From positions 1 through 33,312 of the forward strand of contig JABGSX010000009.1 in assembly GCA_018647505.1 (NCBI GenBank): a stretch of DNA of 33,312 nucleotides, read 5' to 3'. This DNA comes from a bacterium. GTDB taxonomy: Bacteria > Babelota > Babeliae > Babelales > JABGSX01. The first letter of the stretch is position 1. The number at the start of each line of letters is the position of its first letter. This document shows positions 3,319 to 22,949 of the stretch, in pieces. The notes below the pieces were generated by a model. That model saw only the letters and a program-made list of their open reading frames with translations, was not told where the DNA came from and made no database searches. The position numbers were made by a program, and so were the translations under genes.

Positions 3319-4545
3319 ATGAAAAACGGTGCGGTTAAAATTTTTACGTTGGCACTATTATGTTTCGGTAGTTTGATGGCAATAGAAAAAACAAGTAAAG
3401 ACATTTTTGGAAAATGGCAAAAAACACAAAGGGTTTTTGACCGTGTTAACATCTCAAAACAAAAAGATTTATTTTCTCACAAACAATTTGATTCTAAAAA
3501 AGCAGAAGGACCATACGAACAATTGGAACAGCTACTATCTAAGTCTAGTTCTTTTGATCAAATTGAAAACAACTTAAATGACCTTATAGAACAAATAAAA
3601 ACTATTAAAGATTTTGCCACAGACAAAACAAATAAAAAAGAAAAAACAGAAGTATTCAATGACGTTCTTGCACGTTATTTGGTTATTTTTGATACTGTTT
3701 TTAACAGCACTGACTATTACGGAATAAAAAGAAAATTTATATTTAATGTTGCAAACAAATTTAGCCAATATTGTTTTGCCCCAAATACAAATAAGTTTTT
3801 TAAAGTACTTCTAAATAACAACAAATACCACCCTATTGTAAGAATGCTTTACGCAATTATATGGAAGCATTTATCAGGAATAGGCTGGTGCCATTGGAGC
3901 CAAGAATGTCTGTCGAATATTAAAAAAAAGACCAAACAAAAGCATGAAATTGTGTACATTGCAGGAGGAAGCGATATATACCAACTGCTTACTAATGGAG
4001 TTTATAATATAAGAGTAATAGATCCACAACTTACAACACAGCCAAAATATTATTCAGAAGGATGGACATTTCTTATTAATGGAAATGTTGGTGACACAAT
4101 AAAAATACCAGAGGCAAATCTCATTTTAACCAGAATAAGCCAAACCAAAACAGAAAAAACATTTAAAGCTCCGGTATCTAGAACAGAAAAAGAAAGCATC
4201 CCAGAAGAAACAATTGTATGGAAAATCTCAAACATACAAAATCCAAAAAATAAGCTTGGGAGAGTTACGTTCGAACGAAGATTTGCAATACAAAAAGACT
4301 TTGAAATTGCACCACAAAAAACAATATTGCTCTCCTTTAACGAACTTTACTTTATTGCGGCTCCAAGCAATTTTGAAGGGTGGGGAATTGATCCAGATAA
4401 ATTTGATAGAAATATACAATTGTACATAAAACAACTACACCAGCCGATTAACAAAAAAATGGTTTTAAACATGACAGATGCTATAAAAAGTAAATTTAGC
4501 TTCATAAAGCTTGGTACAAACACAGTTTTTGCACCAGGACACTAA
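3319..4545 (+). CDS. Exported AGG(S/T)DIY-family protein, paralogue 1
   Basis: 408 residues starting at ATG with AGGAAA upstream. A signal peptide (MKNGAVKIFTLALLCFGSLMA) is followed by a mostly helical, Lys/Asn-rich N-terminal half. The C-terminal half has the best conserved blocks of the trio: KYHPIVRMLYA, then YIAGGSDIYQLL, a short gap and IRVIDPQ, later VTFERRFA and LSFNELYF. The AGGSDIY block followed by a predicted strand ending in D is loosely reminiscent of a nucleotide-binding Rossmann turn, but I cannot assign an enzyme. It is the first gene of a tight operon running to 7959 and very similar to the next gene, indicating recent tandem duplication. Confidence 0.8.
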   Translation: MKNGAVKIFTLALLCFGSLMAIEKTSKDIFGKWQKTQRVFDRVNISKQKDLFSHKQFDSKKAEGPYEQLEQLLSKSSSFDQIENNLNDLIEQIKTIKDFATDKTNKKEKTEVFNDVLARYLVIFDTVFNSTDYYGIKRKFIFNVANKFSQYCFAPNTNKFFKVLLNNNKYHPIVRMLYAIIWKHLSGIGWCHWSQECLSNIKKKTKQKHEIVYIAGGSDIYQLLTNGVYNIRVIDPQLTTQPKYYSEGWTFLINGNVGDTIKIPEANLILTRISQTKTEKTFKAPVSRTEKESIPEETIVWKISNIQNPKNKLGRVTFERRFAIQKDFEIAPQKTILLSFNELYFIAAPSNFEGWGIDPDKFDRNIQLYIKQLHQPINKKMVLNMTDAIKSKFSFIKLGTNTVFAPGH

Positions 4546-4568
4546 TACAAGTCAAACAGGTAATAAAG

Positions 4569-5816
4569 ATGAAACGTTGTATAGTAAAAGCATTTACTTT
4601 AGCTATATTGTTTTTATATTCGTTCACAACAATTGCGGAAGAAAAAACAAGTCAAGAAATCTTTGGAAAATGGCAAAGAACACAAAGGGTCTTTGACTAT
4701 GTTAATATATCAAAACAAAAATATCTTTTTTCTCATAAAAACTTTAAATCTAAAGAGCCAGCCGGACCATATGAAAAATTAGAACAATTACTATATAAGC
4801 CTAGCTCATTTGATTTAATTGAATACAATTTAGACGACCTTATAGAACAAATCAAAAACATTAAAGAATTTGCTTCAGAAGAAACAAATAAAAAAGAACT
4901 ATCTAACGATGTTCTTGAACATTACTCCGTAATTTTTGATATAGGCTCGACTAAAATTGGACAAATGGTTTTTAACAAAACAAACTTTTACGAAAGAAAA
5001 AGACAGTTTATATTCAACATCGCAAACAAAATTAGCCAATACTGCTTTAACCCAAGTACAAATAAATCTTTTAGAGTCCTTTTAAATAACAATAAATATC
5101 ACCCTATTGTACGAATGCTTTACGCTATTATGTGGAAACATTTTTCAGGAATTGGCTGGTGCAATTGGAGCCAAGAATGTCTGTCTAATATTAAAAAAAT
5201 GGCCAAACAAAAACATGAGACTGTATACATTGCAGGAGGAAGCGATATTTACCAGCTTCTTATAAACGGAATTTACAATATAAGAGTAATAGATCCGCAG
5301 CTTAAAACACAGCCAACATATTACTCAGAAGGATGGAGTTTTCTAATTAATGGAAGTATTGGCGATACAATAAAAATACCAGAGGCTGATATAATTTTAA
5401 CCAGAATAAGCAAAACTAAAACAGGAAAAATATTTAAAGCTCCAGTGTCTAGAACAGAAAAAGAAAGTATCCCAGAAGAAACAATTGTATGGAAAATCTC
5501 AAACATACAAAATCCAAAAAAAGAACTTGGAATACTTACATTCGAACGAAGATTTGCAATACAAAAAGACTTTGATTTTTCACCACAAAAAACAATTGTG
5601 CTTTCATTTAACGAACTTTATTTTATTGCAACTCCAGAGAACTTTGAAGGATGGGAAATTAATCCTGATAAATTTGATAAAAACATACAACTATATATCA
5701 AACAACTACACCAACCATTTAACAAAAAAATGGTCTTAAATTTAACAGATTCTGAAAGAAGCCAATTTAGATTCATAAAGCTTGGTTCAAACACAGTTTT
5801 TGCACCGGAACACTAA
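4569..5816 (+). CDS. Exported AGG(S/T)DIY-family protein, paralogue 2
   Basis: 415 residues, starting 23 bases after paralogue 1 stops, with ACAGGTAATAAAG before the ATG much as in paralogue 1. The signal peptide has changed (MKRCIVKAFTLAILFLYSFTTIA), but the mature protein is nearly collinear and shares long identical stretches such as YIAGGSDIYQLL, SRTEKESIPEETIVWK and the C-terminal NTVFAP. It carries a small insertion around IGSTKIGQMVF that paralogue 1 lacks. The high nucleotide similarity points to a recent duplication with both copies intact. Function is unknown, as for its neighbours. Confidence 0.8.
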   Translation: MKRCIVKAFTLAILFLYSFTTIAEEKTSQEIFGKWQRTQRVFDYVNISKQKYLFSHKNFKSKEPAGPYEKLEQLLYKPSSFDLIEYNLDDLIEQIKNIKEFASEETNKKELSNDVLEHYSVIFDIGSTKIGQMVFNKTNFYERKRQFIFNIANKISQYCFNPSTNKSFRVLLNNNKYHPIVRMLYAIMWKHFSGIGWCNWSQECLSNIKKMAKQKHETVYIAGGSDIYQLLINGIYNIRVIDPQLKTQPTYYSEGWSFLINGSIGDTIKIPEADIILTRISKTKTGKIFKAPVSRTEKESIPEETIVWKISNIQNPKKELGILTFERRFAIQKDFDFSPQKTIVLSFNELYFIATPENFEGWEINPDKFDKNIQLYIKQLHQPFNKKMVLNLTDSERSQFRFIKLGSNTVFAPEH

Positions 5817-13386: not shown

Positions 13387-13639
13387 TTTTCTACCCCTAT
13401 GGGTTTTCATTTTGTATATAATTACATTTACACAAGCATACATTTTTTTTGAAATTTTGAATACGAACCAACGACGAGCACAGACATTATTGCATGTACA
13501 CAAAAACGCGTTATTTCCTTTTGAAATTAAAGCGGTAGCAAAAAAACAAAACCTGGATAAGGTTGTAATTTATTGTTAAATTTATTACTGGACTTAAGAA
13601 TTTATTTTTTGATTATTCAGATATGGTGGAGGTTATATC

Positions 13640-14725
13640 ATGAGGTTATCACGTCTTTTATTATTGAATTTATTATTCGCAATGTTATTTACAACATCCG
13701 CAGTTCCAGCACAACAAAAATCTACTCTTAGAGGACTTTTTGTATCTGCACTCGTCATAAGTGCAGTTGGCACAGCGGCAACAACCGTTGCATACATTAA
13801 AGGCGACGAAGCACGTAGAGGGAAAATTAAGGCGGGTCTTCGTTCAGCCGGAGGAAAAATTGCACGATTAACTGATCTTACTCTTTACGGAATAGGCAAA
13901 GGAACACACAAGCTTAGAATAGCTCTAGGTTTTGTTCCAGAAGGTGTAGAAGAACTCCATGAAGCAGCAACAGTAGCATGTGATCATGCAGAACAACTTG
14001 AAGAACTTCGAGCCTTGAAAGCAGCTGATACCAAACAAAAAGAACTCATCGGACAACTTCAAGAAGCGATAAGTTCATTAAGAGCTCAAGCCACAAAACA
14101 CACAGCAACAGCTGGCTTAGCAGGTGATACATCTGCCTTACTACAATCACAAGAAGAAACAAGACGTGCGAATGAACAACTTGATGTATTATCTGAAAGG
14201 CTTAGAGTCGCCACCAGAGCAAACGAAACTCTAGAACAACAAATAGCAAAAAAAAATGCCGCAATCACCAGGCTTGGAGCACAAATAAGAGAATTAAAAA
14301 TAGCGCCCAAGACTAGGCTCGCTGAAACAATGCCGGCCCCTCCTCCTGTAGCCACAGGAACACCACCAGTAGTTACTCCAGCAAAACCCACACCACAACC
14401 AAGGGCTAGACAAAGAAGAGCAACCGTAGCAACAGTAGCGCCATCATCAACTTTGGGTAGCTTAATAGCTTCTGAAGCAAGGAAACTTATCGCTATAGTT
14501 GAAACAGCAAAAGAGAATAATAAAACGGATCTTACACCTCTTGAAAAATTTGAAACAGAAAACATTGGGTACCAAGGAGCTTTAAAATCTTTAGTAGAAG
14601 CAATGTCAGCATGGAACAGCGCTGAAGGCATGGTAACAAAAATGCAAAAAAAATCTGCTGTCCAAAGAACCGCCAGCTCAGTAATTACTGAGCTAGACCG
14701 CATTGCTTTGCGTGCCAGCAGATAA
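13640..14725 (+). CDS. Exported coiled-coil protein, member 1 of a mosaic trio
   Basis: 361 residues, with the strong leader GGAGGTTATATC directly before the ATG. Order of parts: signal peptide (MRLSRLLLLNLLFAMLFTTSAVPAQ), a hydrophobic helix (GLFVSALVISAVGTAATTVAYI, residues about 31-53), a basic segment ending in LTDLTLYGIGKG, a long coiled coil (about residues 110-215), a Pro/Ala/Thr linker (PPPVATGTPP) and a helical C-terminus. The N-terminal 90 residues align with those of the gene at 16656 (shared TTVAY, NGD/KGD, TDLT and GIG landmarks). The protein probably stays in the periplasm or inner membrane with its coil projecting outwards. Family unknown. Confidence 0.8.
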   Translation: MRLSRLLLLNLLFAMLFTTSAVPAQQKSTLRGLFVSALVISAVGTAATTVAYIKGDEARRGKIKAGLRSAGGKIARLTDLTLYGIGKGTHKLRIALGFVPEGVEELHEAATVACDHAEQLEELRALKAADTKQKELIGQLQEAISSLRAQATKHTATAGLAGDTSALLQSQEETRRANEQLDVLSERLRVATRANETLEQQIAKKNAAITRLGAQIRELKIAPKTRLAETMPAPPPVATGTPPVVTPAKPTPQPRARQRRATVATVAPSSTLGSLIASEARKLIAIVETAKENNKTDLTPLEKFETENIGYQGALKSLVEAMSAWNSAEGMVTKMQKKSAVQRTASSVITELDRIALRASR

Positions 14726-14755
14726 TAGAATTAACATAAAAAAATAATTTAATTT

Positions 14756-14785
14756 GGGAGGCTTTAAGCGCCTCCCCTTTTTTTA
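14756..14785 (+). terminator. Rho-independent terminator
   Basis: GGGAGGC (14756-14762) pairs with GCCTCCC (14770-14776), followed by CTTTTTTT. Confidence 0.85.
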
Positions 14786-14840
14786 CACTCTTACGGATTG
14801 TCACATTCACAGGTTAAAGAACTAAGGTGTTATTTTCTAT

Positions 14841-14868
14841 TTGACAATTTATGTTTTTTATTTATACT
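14841..14868 (+). promoter_or_regulatory. Promoter for the gene at 14940
   Basis: Perfect TTGACA (14841-14846), a 16-base spacer and TATACT (14863-14868). It follows the terminator of the previous gene, so 14940 is independently transcribed. Confidence 0.65.
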
Positions 14869-14939
14869 CAGAAATATAGAGTTAAAGAATCTGTTTTTAG
14901 TATTGTTTTGTACTTATTTTATATCTTGGAGGTTATAAA

Positions 14940-16571
14940 ATGTTTAATTTTAAATCACACTCATTATTAGTATTATTGTTACTTGGTGCCTTGCCAGCTG
15001 GCGCAGCAGCACCAAGACAAAGGTCTTTTGGTCTTAAAGAAAGCGCTCTATTGGGAGCCGGTGTAACAGTTGGAATGCTTGTAAAGCACTTTTTGTTTCC
15101 TAGCAAACCAAAAGTTGAAGTTAGAGAAGTTGAGAAAGAAGTTTTTGTAGATAGACCTGTTGAAGAAGTTCTTACTGCAGATGGCTTCGCCCAAACTGAC
15201 GAGAATGAAGAATTAAGAGAATTAAAATTGGCTCAAGTAAGAGATACTTTAGAGCTTCGTGAAGCTTTAGAAAGAGCCGAAAAAGCTTTAGCACAAACAC
15301 AATTAACAGGATATTTTTCAACGATGGAAAGAGTCGCTAGAAAAGAAAAAGCACATCAACTCAGACGCGGATTTCAAGCATTTAAAGATCATGCTCAAGC
15401 AACAAGGCTACAAGAACTTACAGCTAGATTTGACACTGAAATGGACGCGCAACAAGCAGCTTTACTAGAAAAATTAGAACTGGTTAAAGGACGCCTTGCA
15501 GGAATAGAAACAGATGTCGCACGAGCCCTTCCACCAGTTAAGGCTTTAGTTGAAAGGCTACAAACAGAAGTTCAAAGACTTTCAACAGCTCTAGGTACAG
15601 AAGCAGCCGCTCGAAGGCTTGCTGAAACTACAGCGCAGGAAACAATGGATAGAGAAGCCGCTGCAAAAGAAGAAGCCTCAACAGTTCAAGAAGAATTACT
15701 TGCAAAAATTGAGCAACTTAAACTAGAAGTCGCCGAACTTACACAAGAAGCAAGACAAATGGAAATTGCAAGACAACGTTATGAATTAGTTATGAAAAGA
15801 AAGTGTTTTGATGGCTTTGTACAAAATTTAAGACTCGCTAGAGAAGAAGCAAGAAAAACTGCATTGGCGCAAGAACTCTCTAATAGACATACACTTGCAA
15901 GAACATTTGGCGCATGGGCAAAACTTCCAGAAACTAACAGGGAAGAAACAAGAAGAACCGCTCAGTTGTCAGCGATTGCTACAAGAACAGAAGCAAAATT
16001 ATTATCAAGTGTATTTGCAACATGGAGAGCACAAATTGCAGCAGCTAGAACAGCCACTGAAACAGATGCAGTATTGCCAGAAGATTCTCCATCAGCAGAA
16101 GCGCTTGTACTTGCAGCAAAAGAAGAAGAAGCTAGATTGAGAGAATTAGAACTTGCAACAGCAGCAGAAGCAGCCACAGAGCCTTCAGAAGAAAAAGTGG
16201 CAGAAGCCACAAGAAAAGCTGCTTTGGCAGAGAGAATGTCCAGATTAAGCACAGGTGGTACTCCAGTTGTTGATCCTACAAGCGTAAGGCTTAAATCATG
16301 CGTACGACGCAGAGAAAGCTCTGTTGGCATTAGACACGCAAAAATGGCAGCACTACAAGGTCTTGTAGAACAAGCAAGGGATAACTTCGAGAAAACAACA
16401 GAAGAAACACTTGCTCCATTGGTTGAATATAAAGCAGAAAGAGGTGCTCCAACAAGAGAAATTGATAGCTTCATGGCAGCATTTCAAAAAGCAAAGAAAC
16501 CAGGGTCAAACGGTATAGCAAAAAGACTTCTTGGAATTCAAGCTGGAACATTGTTAAGCAAATTGGTTTAA
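14940..16571 (+). CDS. Exported coiled-coil protein with Sfi1-like repeats, mosaic trio member 2
   Basis: 543 residues after the leader GGAGGTTATAAA. A signal peptide (MFNFKSHSLLVLLLLGALPAGAAA) and a hydrophobic helix (ESALLGAGVTVGMLV) are followed by a V-E-K-E-V-F-V-D-R-P-V-E stretch and long Ala/Glu/Arg coiled coils. Within these, short units fit A-x7-L-L-x3-F-x2-W: around F126, F145, F293, F323 (TLARTFGAW, A at 310, W326) and F359 (LLSSVFATW, W362). This is the consensus of centrin-binding repeats in eukaryotic Sfi1. The last 57 residues match the C-terminus of the gene at 16656 (both contain APTREID). Host centrin binding is inference; the repeats could also be an independent helical motif. 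Confidence 0.8.
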   Translation: MFNFKSHSLLVLLLLGALPAGAAAPRQRSFGLKESALLGAGVTVGMLVKHFLFPSKPKVEVREVEKEVFVDRPVEEVLTADGFAQTDENEELRELKLAQVRDTLELREALERAEKALAQTQLTGYFSTMERVARKEKAHQLRRGFQAFKDHAQATRLQELTARFDTEMDAQQAALLEKLELVKGRLAGIETDVARALPPVKALVERLQTEVQRLSTALGTEAAARRLAETTAQETMDREAAAKEEASTVQEELLAKIEQLKLEVAELTQEARQMEIARQRYELVMKRKCFDGFVQNLRLAREEARKTALAQELSNRHTLARTFGAWAKLPETNREETRRTAQLSAIATRTEAKLLSSVFATWRAQIAAARTATETDAVLPEDSPSAEALVLAAKEEEARLRELELATAAEAATEPSEEKVAEATRKAALAERMSRLSTGGTPVVDPTSVRLKSCVRRRESSVGIRHAKMAALQGLVEQARDNFEKTTEETLAPLVEYKAERGAPTREIDSFMAAFQKAKKPGSNGIAKRLLGIQAGTLLSKLV

Positions 16572-16590
16572 AAAAAATATATATAAATAA

Positions 16591-16622
16591 AAAAGGAGCT
16601 CGGGTTTGAGCTCCTTTTTTTA
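16591..16622 (+). terminator. Rho-independent terminator
   Basis: AAAGGAGCTC (16592-16601) pairs with GAGCTCCTTT (16608-16617) and is followed by a T run. Confidence 0.9.
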
Positions 16623-16655
16623 AGTTAATATTAAAAACATGATGGAGGTTATATC

Positions 16656-17345
16656 ATGAAATTATCTTATCTTTTATTATTTAGTTTGTTGTTTGCAACT
16701 CCTATGTTGCCAGCGCAAGAACACAGAGGCTCATCTGCCATTAGAACAATAAAAGGGCTTTTTATTTTAACAATAGTAACAGGAACAACAGTAGCTGCAA
16801 CAACAACTGTCGCTTATGTTAATGGTGACGCAGAACAAAAAGCTAGAATTGAGAAAATGGTTGCTTCAGCAAGAAGAAGACTTTCCACAGCAACCGACCT
16901 AACATGTCGTGGAATAGGCTTTATGGTAAGCGCAACAATAAACTTACTCAGCCCAAGCACACCCGCAACAGAAAGACATGAAGAAACACCTGAGCCAACC
17001 ACACCAGTTGTTCAAGTTGCAAAGGTTCTTTCCGTAGCATCAGTATCAAAAGCTACAACGGAAACTCCAGTTGTTCAGGTTGCTGAGGTTGTTCATGCAC
17101 CACCAACAATTATTGATCTTGAAACACTAAAATTAGTAATTAATTCTTCAATAGAAGATTTGGTACTAATAACAGAAGAGGTTTTGGGTACATTAGCTGA
17201 ATACAGAGAAACAGATAGCGCTCCAACAAGAGAAATTGATGCCTTTACAGAGGCACTTGAAGCAACAAAGGCTCACGGAGCAAACAGACTTCAAACAATT
17301 CAGTTTCAAACGAAAGCAAGAGAACTGTTAAGAAAATTACCATAA
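16656..17345 (+). CDS. Exported protein combining ends of its two neighbours, mosaic trio member 3
   Basis: 229 residues after the leader GGAGGTTATATC. Its N-terminal part (signal peptide MKLSYLLLFSLLFATPMLPAQ, then a hydrophobic helix with TTTVAYVNGD and a basic stretch with TDLTCRGIG) corresponds to the gene at 13640. Its last 57 residues (EEVLGTLAEYR, APTREIDAF, ARELLRKL) correspond to the gene at 14940. The coiled coil of both neighbours is missing. In between lies a short Thr/Val linker in which TPVVQVA(K/E)V occurs twice. It looks like a natural fusion or a shortened family member made by recombination. No enzyme motif is visible. Confidence 0.8.
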   Translation: MKLSYLLLFSLLFATPMLPAQEHRGSSAIRTIKGLFILTIVTGTTVAATTTVAYVNGDAEQKARIEKMVASARRRLSTATDLTCRGIGFMVSATINLLSPSTPATERHEETPEPTTPVVQVAKVLSVASVSKATTETPVVQVAEVVHAPPTIIDLETLKLVINSSIEDLVLITEEVLGTLAEYRETDSAPTREIDAFTEALEATKAHGANRLQTIQFQTKARELLRKLP

Positions 17346-17360
17346 TATTATATTGTTTAA

Positions 17361-17393
17361 ATTAAAAGGGGCTCAAATTTGAGCCCCTTTTTT
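17361..17393 (+). terminator. Rho-independent terminator
   Basis: AAAAGGGGCTC (17365-17375) pairs with GAGCCCCTTTT (17381-17391) around AAATTT, followed by more T. Confidence 0.9.
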
Positions 17394-17410
17394 GTGTCCA
17401 TTTTTTACAA

Positions 17411-17624
17411 TTCGTATGCATCCCTTCGATTCGGCATTATGCCTCGCTCAGGGCTATCAGACATTCTTTTGTGTTCGTATACGTTCGACTTCATTCGCGT
17501 TGCTCACTCCGCTCAGTACGAACGGGAATAACTTCTACAATTATCCAAAAGCAAATTCAATAGCAAGCTTGCTTGCCGTTCGCCCTGAGTAAGTCCGTAG
17601 GACGCATCGAATGGGTACGAACGG
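17411..17624. repeat. Cluster of palindromic, GC-richer repeat units
   Basis: Three related units lie in a non-coding gap. Unit A (17411-17454) contains TTCGTA, CCCTTCGATTCGGC and GCTCAGGGC. Unit C (17581-17624) is an inverted relative containing GCCCTGAGTAAG, CATCGAATGGG and TACGAACGG. Unit B (17474-17526) repeats TTCGTA, TTCGACTTC and GCTCAGTACGAACGG. The units share their ends rather than their centres and are clearly richer in G and C than the surroundings. This fits a short dispersed palindromic (REP- or MITE-like) element in several decayed copies. No reading frame here looks like a gene. Confidence 0.7.
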
Positions 17625-17847
17625 ACCAATCAAGTTTAATGTTAAATAACATCTTCACCAAGGCCTTTCGATTAACTTTTTTATTCAAAATAAGTGCATA
17701 AAATAAATATAAACAAAAATTTTATCTCAACAGCACCCAGACGACCATTATTCATTTTTAATTCTGGCCAATTTTCAAAAAAATAGTATCATTAGGTATT
17801 CATGAAAAACAAATGGTAGTAACTATAAAGATGCAGGAGCATTTTGT
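17625..17847. other. AT-rich non-coding stretch upstream of bamA
   Basis: Together with the repeat cluster this forms a gene-free gap of about 450 bases from 17394. I see no reading frame, tRNA or clear promoter in this part, though the bamA promoter must lie here or nearby. Confidence 0.5.
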
Positions 17848-20955: not shown

Positions 20956-21231
20956 GTGAAAAAAATACCATTCGCGGTTTTATTCGTAGCCACTCAAATA
21001 CTTTTCGCAGTTTTAATAATCTATAAACAAAGCCGCAAAATTGAACTTTCGTACAAAAAACAACAATACGAAAGACAACAAGAACAGCTAAAAAAGCAAA
21101 AAGAAACATTAACCCAAAAACTTTATTCTCTAAAAAGCCATTCATCCATTAAAAAATTTGCTCGTAAAAAAAATATGAAAAAAATGCGGCTAAGTCATAT
21201 TAAAACTGTCACGCTGGCAGAATTACAATGA
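20956..21231 (+). CDS. ftsL: FtsL-like division protein (GTG start)
   Basis: The frame is open from 20677, but I choose GTG at 20956, which has GGGAGA six bases upstream and opens directly into a membrane segment (KKIPFAVLFVATQILFAVLII). This gives 91 residues: a short cytoplasmic tail, one transmembrane helix and a coiled coil (YERQQEQLKKQKETLTQKL), the standard FtsL layout. FtsL proteins are poorly conserved in sequence, so the call rests on size, topology and position: its stop overlaps the start of the ftsI-like gene (ATGA). It would act at the division site in the inner membrane together with the transpeptidase. Confidence 0.7.
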   Translation: MKKIPFAVLFVATQILFAVLIIYKQSRKIELSYKKQQYERQQEQLKKQKETLTQKLYSLKSHSSIKKFARKKNMKKMRLSHIKTVTLAELQ

Positions 21232-22949
21232 AAAAAGAATATAATATACGATCATTTTTTATCTTTATTGGTTTCATTGTTTTTTACGCAATACTTATTA
21301 TCGCACTGTATAATATTCAAATTTTGCAAAAAAACTTTTTTTCGCAGCTTGGCGAAAAACAATACGAAACCAGCATAACAACAACTCCACCACGCGCACC
21401 TATTTTTGACCGAAACGGCAATATGCTAGCACTAAACAAAGATATAGTTTCAGCATTTTTGCTTCCAAAACAAATCAAAGATCCAAAGAACTTAGAAACT
21501 TTCCTTAAAAAACATTTCCCTGAATCCCACAAGCGTTTAGACAAAAACCTTAGAAAACACTTTATATTCATCAAACGAAAATTATCTAAAAAAGATATCA
21601 AACTCATAAAAGACAGCAATGTTGAAGATATTCATCTTTTAAAAGAACCAAATCGCTACTATTCTCTTGAATGCGCAGGACCAATAGTTGGAATAACAGA
21701 CATAGATAATAACGGACAATTTGGAATCGAATATCTATTTAACAAACAACTTTCTGGAACTCCAACAACGTCCTCCCTAGAAAAAGACGCACGCTCTGGC
21801 CTGTTTTACATAAAAAAAGAAACAACTGTTCAGGGAGCACAGGGAACGCCGGTAAGATTGACAATAGACAGTGATTTACAATTTTTATGCCAAGAAGAAA
21901 TTGAGGAGGTTGTAGACCGTCTGGAAGCCAGAGAAGGATGCGCAATGATTCTCAACCCTACAAACGGAGATATTCTTGCTATTGCAAATTATCCAACATT
22001 CAACCCTAATAACACTACAAAAATAGACATAGGGTTAACAAAAAATAGAGCCGTCTCAGATGTATACGAACCTGGATCAGTTGTAAAAGCATTTATGGCC
22101 ATGGCTGCGTTGGAAGAAAACGTCACATCTCCTGATGAAATTATAAACTGCCGAAGCACCAGATTTACCACAATAGATAGAATTCCTGTTAGCACAATTC
22201 AAGCGCACGGACACCTTTCATTTACAGATGTTATTGCAAAATCAAATAACATCGGCGTTGTGTTAATCGCAAAGCGTCTTGGTAAAACACTATATGACTA
22301 TTACAAAAAAGTTGGCTTTGGGGCAAAAACAGGAGTGTTGCTACCAGGGGAAGAATCTGGTTTTGTTAATCCTCCAGAAAAATGGTCTGCATATTCTTTG
22401 CGGTCGCTGTCTTTTGGTTATGAAATTACAACCACTCTTTTGCAACTGGCTCAGGCGTTTTCTATCATTGCAAACGATGGCTACATGATACGCCCAAGAA
22501 TAATTCTGGACGACAACACAAATTTACAACAAAAAATTGGGCCTATGTTCTCAGAAAAAACACTGTTAACTATCAAAGAAATTTTAGAAACATCTATAAC
22601 AAAAGGAACATCTCGAAGAGCTGCAATTAGGGGATATTACATTATAGGAAAAACAGGTACTGCAAACATAATTATTGACGGTGAATATAGTCCAAACAGG
22701 AGTGCTTATACATTTTCAGGAATAATTGGTAAAGGATCATACAAGCGAATTATTGTTACAATGGTCAAAGACTCCCCAAAGAAAAATTTATACGCTGCAA
22801 ATGTTGCCGCGCCACTTTTTGAACAAATAGCAGAAAAAGTTTTAATACATGACCGTGTAATAAAAAAACCTAAAAAAAAGGTAAAACGTGAAAAACAAAA
22901 TTTTTATTCCCGTGGATATTCCACAAAAAATACAGGAACTGTTTCTTAA
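21228..22949 (+). CDS. ftsI: Peptidoglycan transpeptidase, FtsI/PBP2-type penicillin-binding protein
   Basis: 573 residues. An N-terminal transmembrane helix (FFIFIGFIVFYAILIIALY) anchors the protein. A PBP-dimerisation domain starts at PPRAPIFDRNGNMLA. The transpeptidase domain has all three active-site motifs: SVVK at residues 284-287 (catalytic Ser), SNN at 339-341 and KTGT at 475-478. It cross-links septal peptidoglycan in the periplasm, so this organism probably makes a cell wall. The Lys-rich C-terminus (KKPKKKVKREK) overlaps the start of the aldolase gene by 62 bases. It begins inside the stop of the ftsL-like gene (ATGA), indicating coupling. I prefer FtsI over PBP2 because of that neighbour. 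Confidence 0.92.
   Translation: MKKEYNIRSFFIFIGFIVFYAILIIALYNIQILQKNFFSQLGEKQYETSITTTPPRAPIFDRNGNMLALNKDIVSAFLLPKQIKDPKNLETFLKKHFPESHKRLDKNLRKHFIFIKRKLSKKDIKLIKDSNVEDIHLLKEPNRYYSLECAGPIVGITDIDNNGQFGIEYLFNKQLSGTPTTSSLEKDARSGLFYIKKETTVQGAQGTPVRLTIDSDLQFLCQEEIEEVVDRLEAREGCAMILNPTNGDILAIANYPTFNPNNTTKIDIGLTKNRAVSDVYEPGSVVKAFMAMAALEENVTSPDEIINCRSTRFTTIDRIPVSTIQAHGHLSFTDVIAKSNNIGVVLIAKRLGKTLYDYYKKVGFGAKTGVLLPGEESGFVNPPEKWSAYSLRSLSFGYEITTTLLQLAQAFSIIANDGYMIRPRIILDDNTNLQQKIGPMFSEKTLLTIKEILETSITKGTSRRAAIRGYYIIGKTGTANIIIDGEYSPNRSAYTFSGIIGKGSYKRIIVTMVKDSPKKNLYAANVAAPLFEQIAEKVLIHDRVIKKPKKKVKREKQNFYSRGYSTKNTGTVS

Follow-up and report, generated by a model that had tools for sequence, protein, structure and literature searches.

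The window, by which we mean the whole stretch of 33,312 nucleotides that was analyzed, carries a three-gene cassette between cysS and bamA. These two genes are divergent and adjacent, with a gap of at most 415 bp, in 39/39 relatives where both were seen. Here the gap is 4344 bp (13504–17847) and holds P0003, P0001, and P0002, as seen in the following list.

13640–14725, + strand: P0003, 361 aa, with putative signal peptide, hydrophobic segment, and coiled coil (from sequence)
14756–14776, + strand: terminator-like hairpin past P0003 (from sequence)
14841–14868, + strand: promoter-like TTGACA-16-TATACT before P0001 (11/12 bases)
14940–16571, + strand: P0001, lineage-specific coiled-coil protein containing the reported units
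14940–15014, + strand: signal-peptide-like N-terminus of P0001, residues 1–25, with an AxA-type cleavage site (from sequence and hydropathy)
15042–15098, + strand: second hydrophobic segment, residues 35–53, a possible membrane anchor (hydropathy 1.53)
15300–15326, + strand: unit F126, residues 121–129, QLTGYFSTM, Met in place of Trp, unsupported (from sequence)
15357–15386, + strand: unit F145, residues 140–149, QLRRGFQAFK, Phe in place of Trp (from sequence)
15792–15821, + strand: degenerate unit F290, residues 285–294, MKRKCFDGFV, Phe in place of Trp (from sequence)
15855–16061, + strand: 69-aa core, residues 306–374, with a sub-threshold Pfam Sfi1 match (profile search)
15867–15917, + strand: unit F323, A310 to W326, TLARTFGAW, L-F-W triad complete (from sequence)
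15975–16028, + strand: unit F359, residues 346–363, LLSSVFATWR, L-F-W triad complete (from sequence)
16341–16568, + strand: C-terminal helical domain of P0001, 33% identity to P0002
16589–16620, no strand assigned: terminator-like hairpin past P0001 (from sequence)
16656–17345, + strand: P0002, 229 aa, N-terminus P0003-like, C-terminus P0001-like (sequence comparison)

The gene at 14940–16571 is real, with an open frame of 543 aa and a ribosome-binding site, TGGAGGTTATAAAATG. The original prediction had placed a coiled-coil gene at 14940, and this was borne out by the frame and its long predicted helix. Searches of Pfam and NCBIfam assigned P0001 to no family. All three cassette proteins have a signal-peptide-like start followed by a second hydrophobic segment. 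The first 100 residues of P0002 are 42% identical to P0003, its last 75 residues are 33% identical to P0001, and on these comparisons the three are mosaic paralogues with common ends. The order was sampled with 101 genomes including this one, about 0.5–2.4 Mb each, a number that searches across the phylum also covered, and the cassette genes or their parts were found in 0/100 of the others. Therefore, the cassette is lineage-specific. The viral contigs searched held no relative of P0001.

A near-identical 16-nt leader, TGGAGGTTATATCATG, precedes each cassette gene (13627–13642, 14927–14942, and 16643–16658), and three matches to it were seen in 0/100 shuffles. Hairpins with T-runs come after all three genes. 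Since one of these terminator-like hairpins stands after P0003, P0001 is probably transcribed on its own. The promoter-like sequence before P0001 belongs to a type of site that is, overall, no commoner than in shuffles. Between the cassette and bamA, the stretch 17400–17640 is GC-richer and has the look of a dispersed repeat, and the one pattern tried retrieved no second copy in the window. Elsewhere in the window, two adjoining ORFs of 408 and 415 aa at 3319–5816 have no Pfam family.

The signal peptide, the second hydrophobic segment, and the helix of P0001 are predicted only. Hydropathy reaches 1.72 at residues 6–24. The protein had been called exported, and the signal-peptide-like start agrees with this. 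However, export is not established because the second hydrophobic segment (residues 35–53) comes after the signal peptide, and the coil could lie in the periplasm, be membrane-anchored, or even face the cytoplasm. One possible explanation is that P0001 is a cell-structure protein, with a coil anchored at the inner membrane and facing either the cytoplasm or the periplasm, which never leaves the cell; we consider this unlikely. Its task would be to organize the envelope or division, a role we also rate as rather doubtful. The second hydrophobic segment is found in all three cassette proteins (stronger in P0002, at 1.69, and P0003, at 1.93, than in P0001) and is followed by Lys/Arg-rich sequence, as this explanation would have it. 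The insertion also adjoins bamA and lies near an FtsI-type penicillin-binding protein at 21228–22949 in the same window. On the other hand, P0001 occurs in none of the other genomes sampled from the order, in which it differs from core genes of the envelope or of division, and its probable status as a separate transcription unit also argues against such a role.

AlphaFold2, run on the single sequence with no alignment, predicted helices at residues 88–234, 236–326, and 331–374 with low to moderate confidence (mean pLDDT about 40–73 across 236–374). A break at 327–330, which contains P330, falls immediately past W326. Foldseek with the predicted structure found nothing, and searches of the PDB by sequence and by fold gave no relevant match to P0001.

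The consensus of the Sfi1 repeat is AX7LLX3F/LX2WK/R, it recurs every 33 aa, and centrin grips its W-F/L-L triad (PMC9406199, PMC5112337). Four units fitting this consensus or a close variant had been reported for 15264–16031, which corresponds to residues 109–364 of P0001. Two of them, F323 and F359, stand with a full triad (L319/F323/W326 and L355/F359/W362), while F126 and F145 do not, since they have no Trp and no profile support. LLSSVFATWR (354–363) matches LL-x3-F-x2-W-R, although the consensus Ala is absent, with I346 at its position flanked by A345 and A347. TLARTFGAW (318–326) has A310, L319, F323, and W326 in place but is missing the first Leu and the K/R. QLTGYFSTM and QLRRGFQAFK exist as written with the Trp replaced, but these fragments gave no Sfi1 match. 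No unit in P0001 satisfies the complete consensus. A further unit that the original prediction missed, F290 (MKRKCFDGF), also has no Trp and lies exactly 33 aa upstream of F323, which is the Sfi1 period. F323 and F359 are 36 aa apart, so the spacing rests on only three units, one of them degenerate; F126 and F145 are 19 aa apart. Both Trp residues of P0001 fall within LxxxFxxW units. We looked for a tandem duplication of the units at the DNA level and found none.

These units raise the possibility that P0001 mimics Sfi1 and would bind host centrin through F323 and F359, F290 adding a weak third site. The two L-F-W triads 36 aa apart and the degenerate unit at 33 aa speak in favor of this, but we consider it quite unlikely. 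Such a protein would need to get into the cytosol of the host or to the vacuolar membrane that faces the host, which is just as improbable. It might then tether the bacterium to basal bodies or the centrosome, or disturb them, and this too we regard as a long shot. The predicted break directly past W326, the count of only two to three units, and the putative nature of delivery to the host cytosol all argue against centrin binding.

An L-F-W pattern at i, i+4, and i+7 is also ordinary helix-core (d-a-d) spacing. Two LxxxFxxW units were seen in 0.12% of plain shuffles and in 0.4–1.1% of shuffles preserving the hydrophobic/small/polar pattern, and four LxxxFxx[WFYM] units in at most 0.04% of shuffles. 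A chain score for spacings of 28–38 aa, the weights of which were set post hoc, reached the observed value in 1/3000 pattern-preserving shuffles. Paired units 25–40 aa apart occur in three other proteins among the 1619 ORFs of the fetched loci (a set that includes the window and its copies), and none of the three is a coiled coil. The shuffle and ORF counts therefore suggest that the L-F-W pattern in P0001 is not trivial, although it is post hoc.

Profile searches gave a mixed result. Pfam Sfi1 (PF08457) was the top family of the core, residues 306–374, with 17.3 bits and an E-value of 0.0018. Class-preserving shuffles of the core matched Sfi1 in 0/40 cases, and this contrast supports centrin mimicry. 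Three unrelated fragments with paired units likewise gave no Sfi1 match. However, the curated cut-off for PF08457 is 22 bits, which P0001 does not reach, the whole protein has no Pfam Sfi1 match at E ≤ 1, and neither does the F290–F323 fragment alone show one. The comparison with shuffles that had been proposed as a check was thus narrowly favorable for the core, but not at the curated cut-off or for the whole protein, and on these scores P0001 would not be counted in the Sfi1 family. Other coils of P0001 match HAUS5 and betaPIX_CC at E-values of 0.006–0.007, both sub-threshold. Because these matches are similarly strong, an Sfi1 E-value of about 0.002 is close to noise. In addition, profiles made from the bacterial units did not retrieve the yeast Sfi1 chains from the PDB, whereas an artificial Sfi1 consensus does, and this weighs against mimicry. 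A search with PF08457 over the 101 genomes of the order gave nothing above the cut-off and two weak irrelevant matches; this search is insensitive because P0001 itself escaped it. The resemblance to Sfi1 exceeds that of shuffles but does not suffice as proof of kinship or of centrin binding.

Another possible explanation for part of this region is that residues 297–326 (15828–15917) are the remnant of a FAN1-type SAP domain, since Pfam FANC_SAP (PF18081) scored 22.6 bits there against a cut-off of 23. Only profile positions 22–51 were matched, the score was 16.9 bits in the whole protein, and a DNA-binding SAP domain would be implausible in a Sec-targeted coil. We find this reading extremely improbable and think that the match is due to chance.

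Unit profiles (A5 and A7) run over the order found only P0001 and one other protein, besides noise. A match in G002, a peptide-ligase-like enzyme, and one in G036, with a single unit, were dropped. The other protein is encoded in G023, a genome from another family of the order, and has 1316 aa (L165, contig 52, 1658–5608, minus strand). Its units KALKKKVFTAW and QLGRSFGAWK are exactly 33 aa apart from F to F, and it aligns without gaps over 59 aa to residues 278–336 of P0001, which is a further point for centrin mimicry. In this alignment, the degenerate F290 unit is opposite LKKKVFTAWV, a full F-x-x-W unit. The pair has a BLASTP E-value of 2e-5 as a single comparison, its BLOSUM score of 80 exceeds the 74 that the best of 60 pattern-preserving shuffles reached, and a reverse search with the G023 stretch returned P0001 as the sole match outside G023. 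The per-genome E-values were 0.0016 (over 85 genomes) and 0.005, and an unrelated coil scored 0.0014. Since values of this size are no more than noise when many genomes are searched, the kinship is suggestive only, which counts against mimicry, as does the finding that the trimmed 56-aa G023 pair had no Sfi1 match. The G023 protein shares with P0001 a signal-peptide-like N-terminus, a further hydrophobic segment, and two LxxxFxxW-type units. It is otherwise unrelated, with no detectable homology between the N-termini and with a marginal ankyrin-like stretch of its own. With the third unit, the shuffles, and the G023 protein, the resemblance to Sfi1 is slightly stronger than the original prediction could show, but it lies under all accepted thresholds. 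It is conceivable, although improbable, that some lineages of the order bear Sfi1-type units on Sec-targeted proteins with no other relationship, such as P0001 and the G023 protein, to hold host centrin. That the units would then have been acquired or have evolved convergently is part of the same reading and equally unlikely.

Centrin mimicry presupposes a eukaryotic host. The genome, of which the window is contig 42, is 1.08 Mb and has five ATP/ADP-carrier (TLC) genes above the curated cut-off, and none were found in 14 control genomes. A eukaryotic host, which the original prediction had only supposed, is supported by the five carriers and the small genome, and the gene content fits an obligate intracellular energy parasite, most likely one of the Dependentiae/Babelales. 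The five genes lie in two clusters, on contigs 15 and 52 of G000 (L137–L142). A precedent for the contact is CteG of Chlamydia trachomatis, which binds centrin-2; like P0001, it is made by an intracellular bacterium and could come into contact with centrin of the host. Unlike P0001, CteG is a type III effector, and the text of the CteG paper names no Sfi1-type repeat (PMC10193975).

P0001 resembles the eukaryotic Sfi1/SFR proteins in its two full triads, one degenerate unit, and predicted long helix. It differs in having two to three units below the Pfam cut-off compared to their roughly 20, and in being bacterial, with a putative signal peptide and a predicted helix break past W326. Tetrahymena Sfr1 has three repeats (PMC5112337). 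In Chromulinavorax destructans, a member of the Dependentiae, signal peptides are found on 44% of genes and are enriched in orphans (PMC6561590). Like the orphans of this predicted secretome, P0001 is lineage-specific and has a putative signal peptide and no known domain, but, unlike them, it is a coiled coil with an Sfi1-like stretch.

We think that P0001 is probably a lineage-specific, Sec-targeted, membrane-anchored coiled coil, for which a structural or host-interface role is most likely. After Sec targeting, the protein would probably be anchored in the membrane, and its long amphipathic helices may pack together or against partner proteins. The L-F-W units would then supply bulky residues to the cores of these helices and are not proven centrin sites, and the coiled coil would serve a structural role or one at the host interface. 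Helix packing by itself does not predict that both Trp residues fall in triads with near-Sfi1 spacing, that Sfi1 is the top family, or that the G023 protein has a pair at 33 aa. Should the units turn out to bind centrin, we know of no earlier case in which a bacterium uses the Sfi1 repeat, and P0001 would provide a handle on how bacteria of this kind manipulate protist basal bodies. Otherwise, P0001 adds to the lineage-specific coiled-coil orphans, and it cautions that Sfi1-like triads arise within amphipathic helices.

Also, an N-terminal module of ~130 aa is common to six otherwise different G023 proteins (L165, L196, L200, L202, L204, and L205). No paired units were present in the stretches compared of the five paralogues of L165. 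The module consists of a putative signal peptide and two further hydrophobic segments, and it resembles a shared targeting unit joined to variable passengers.
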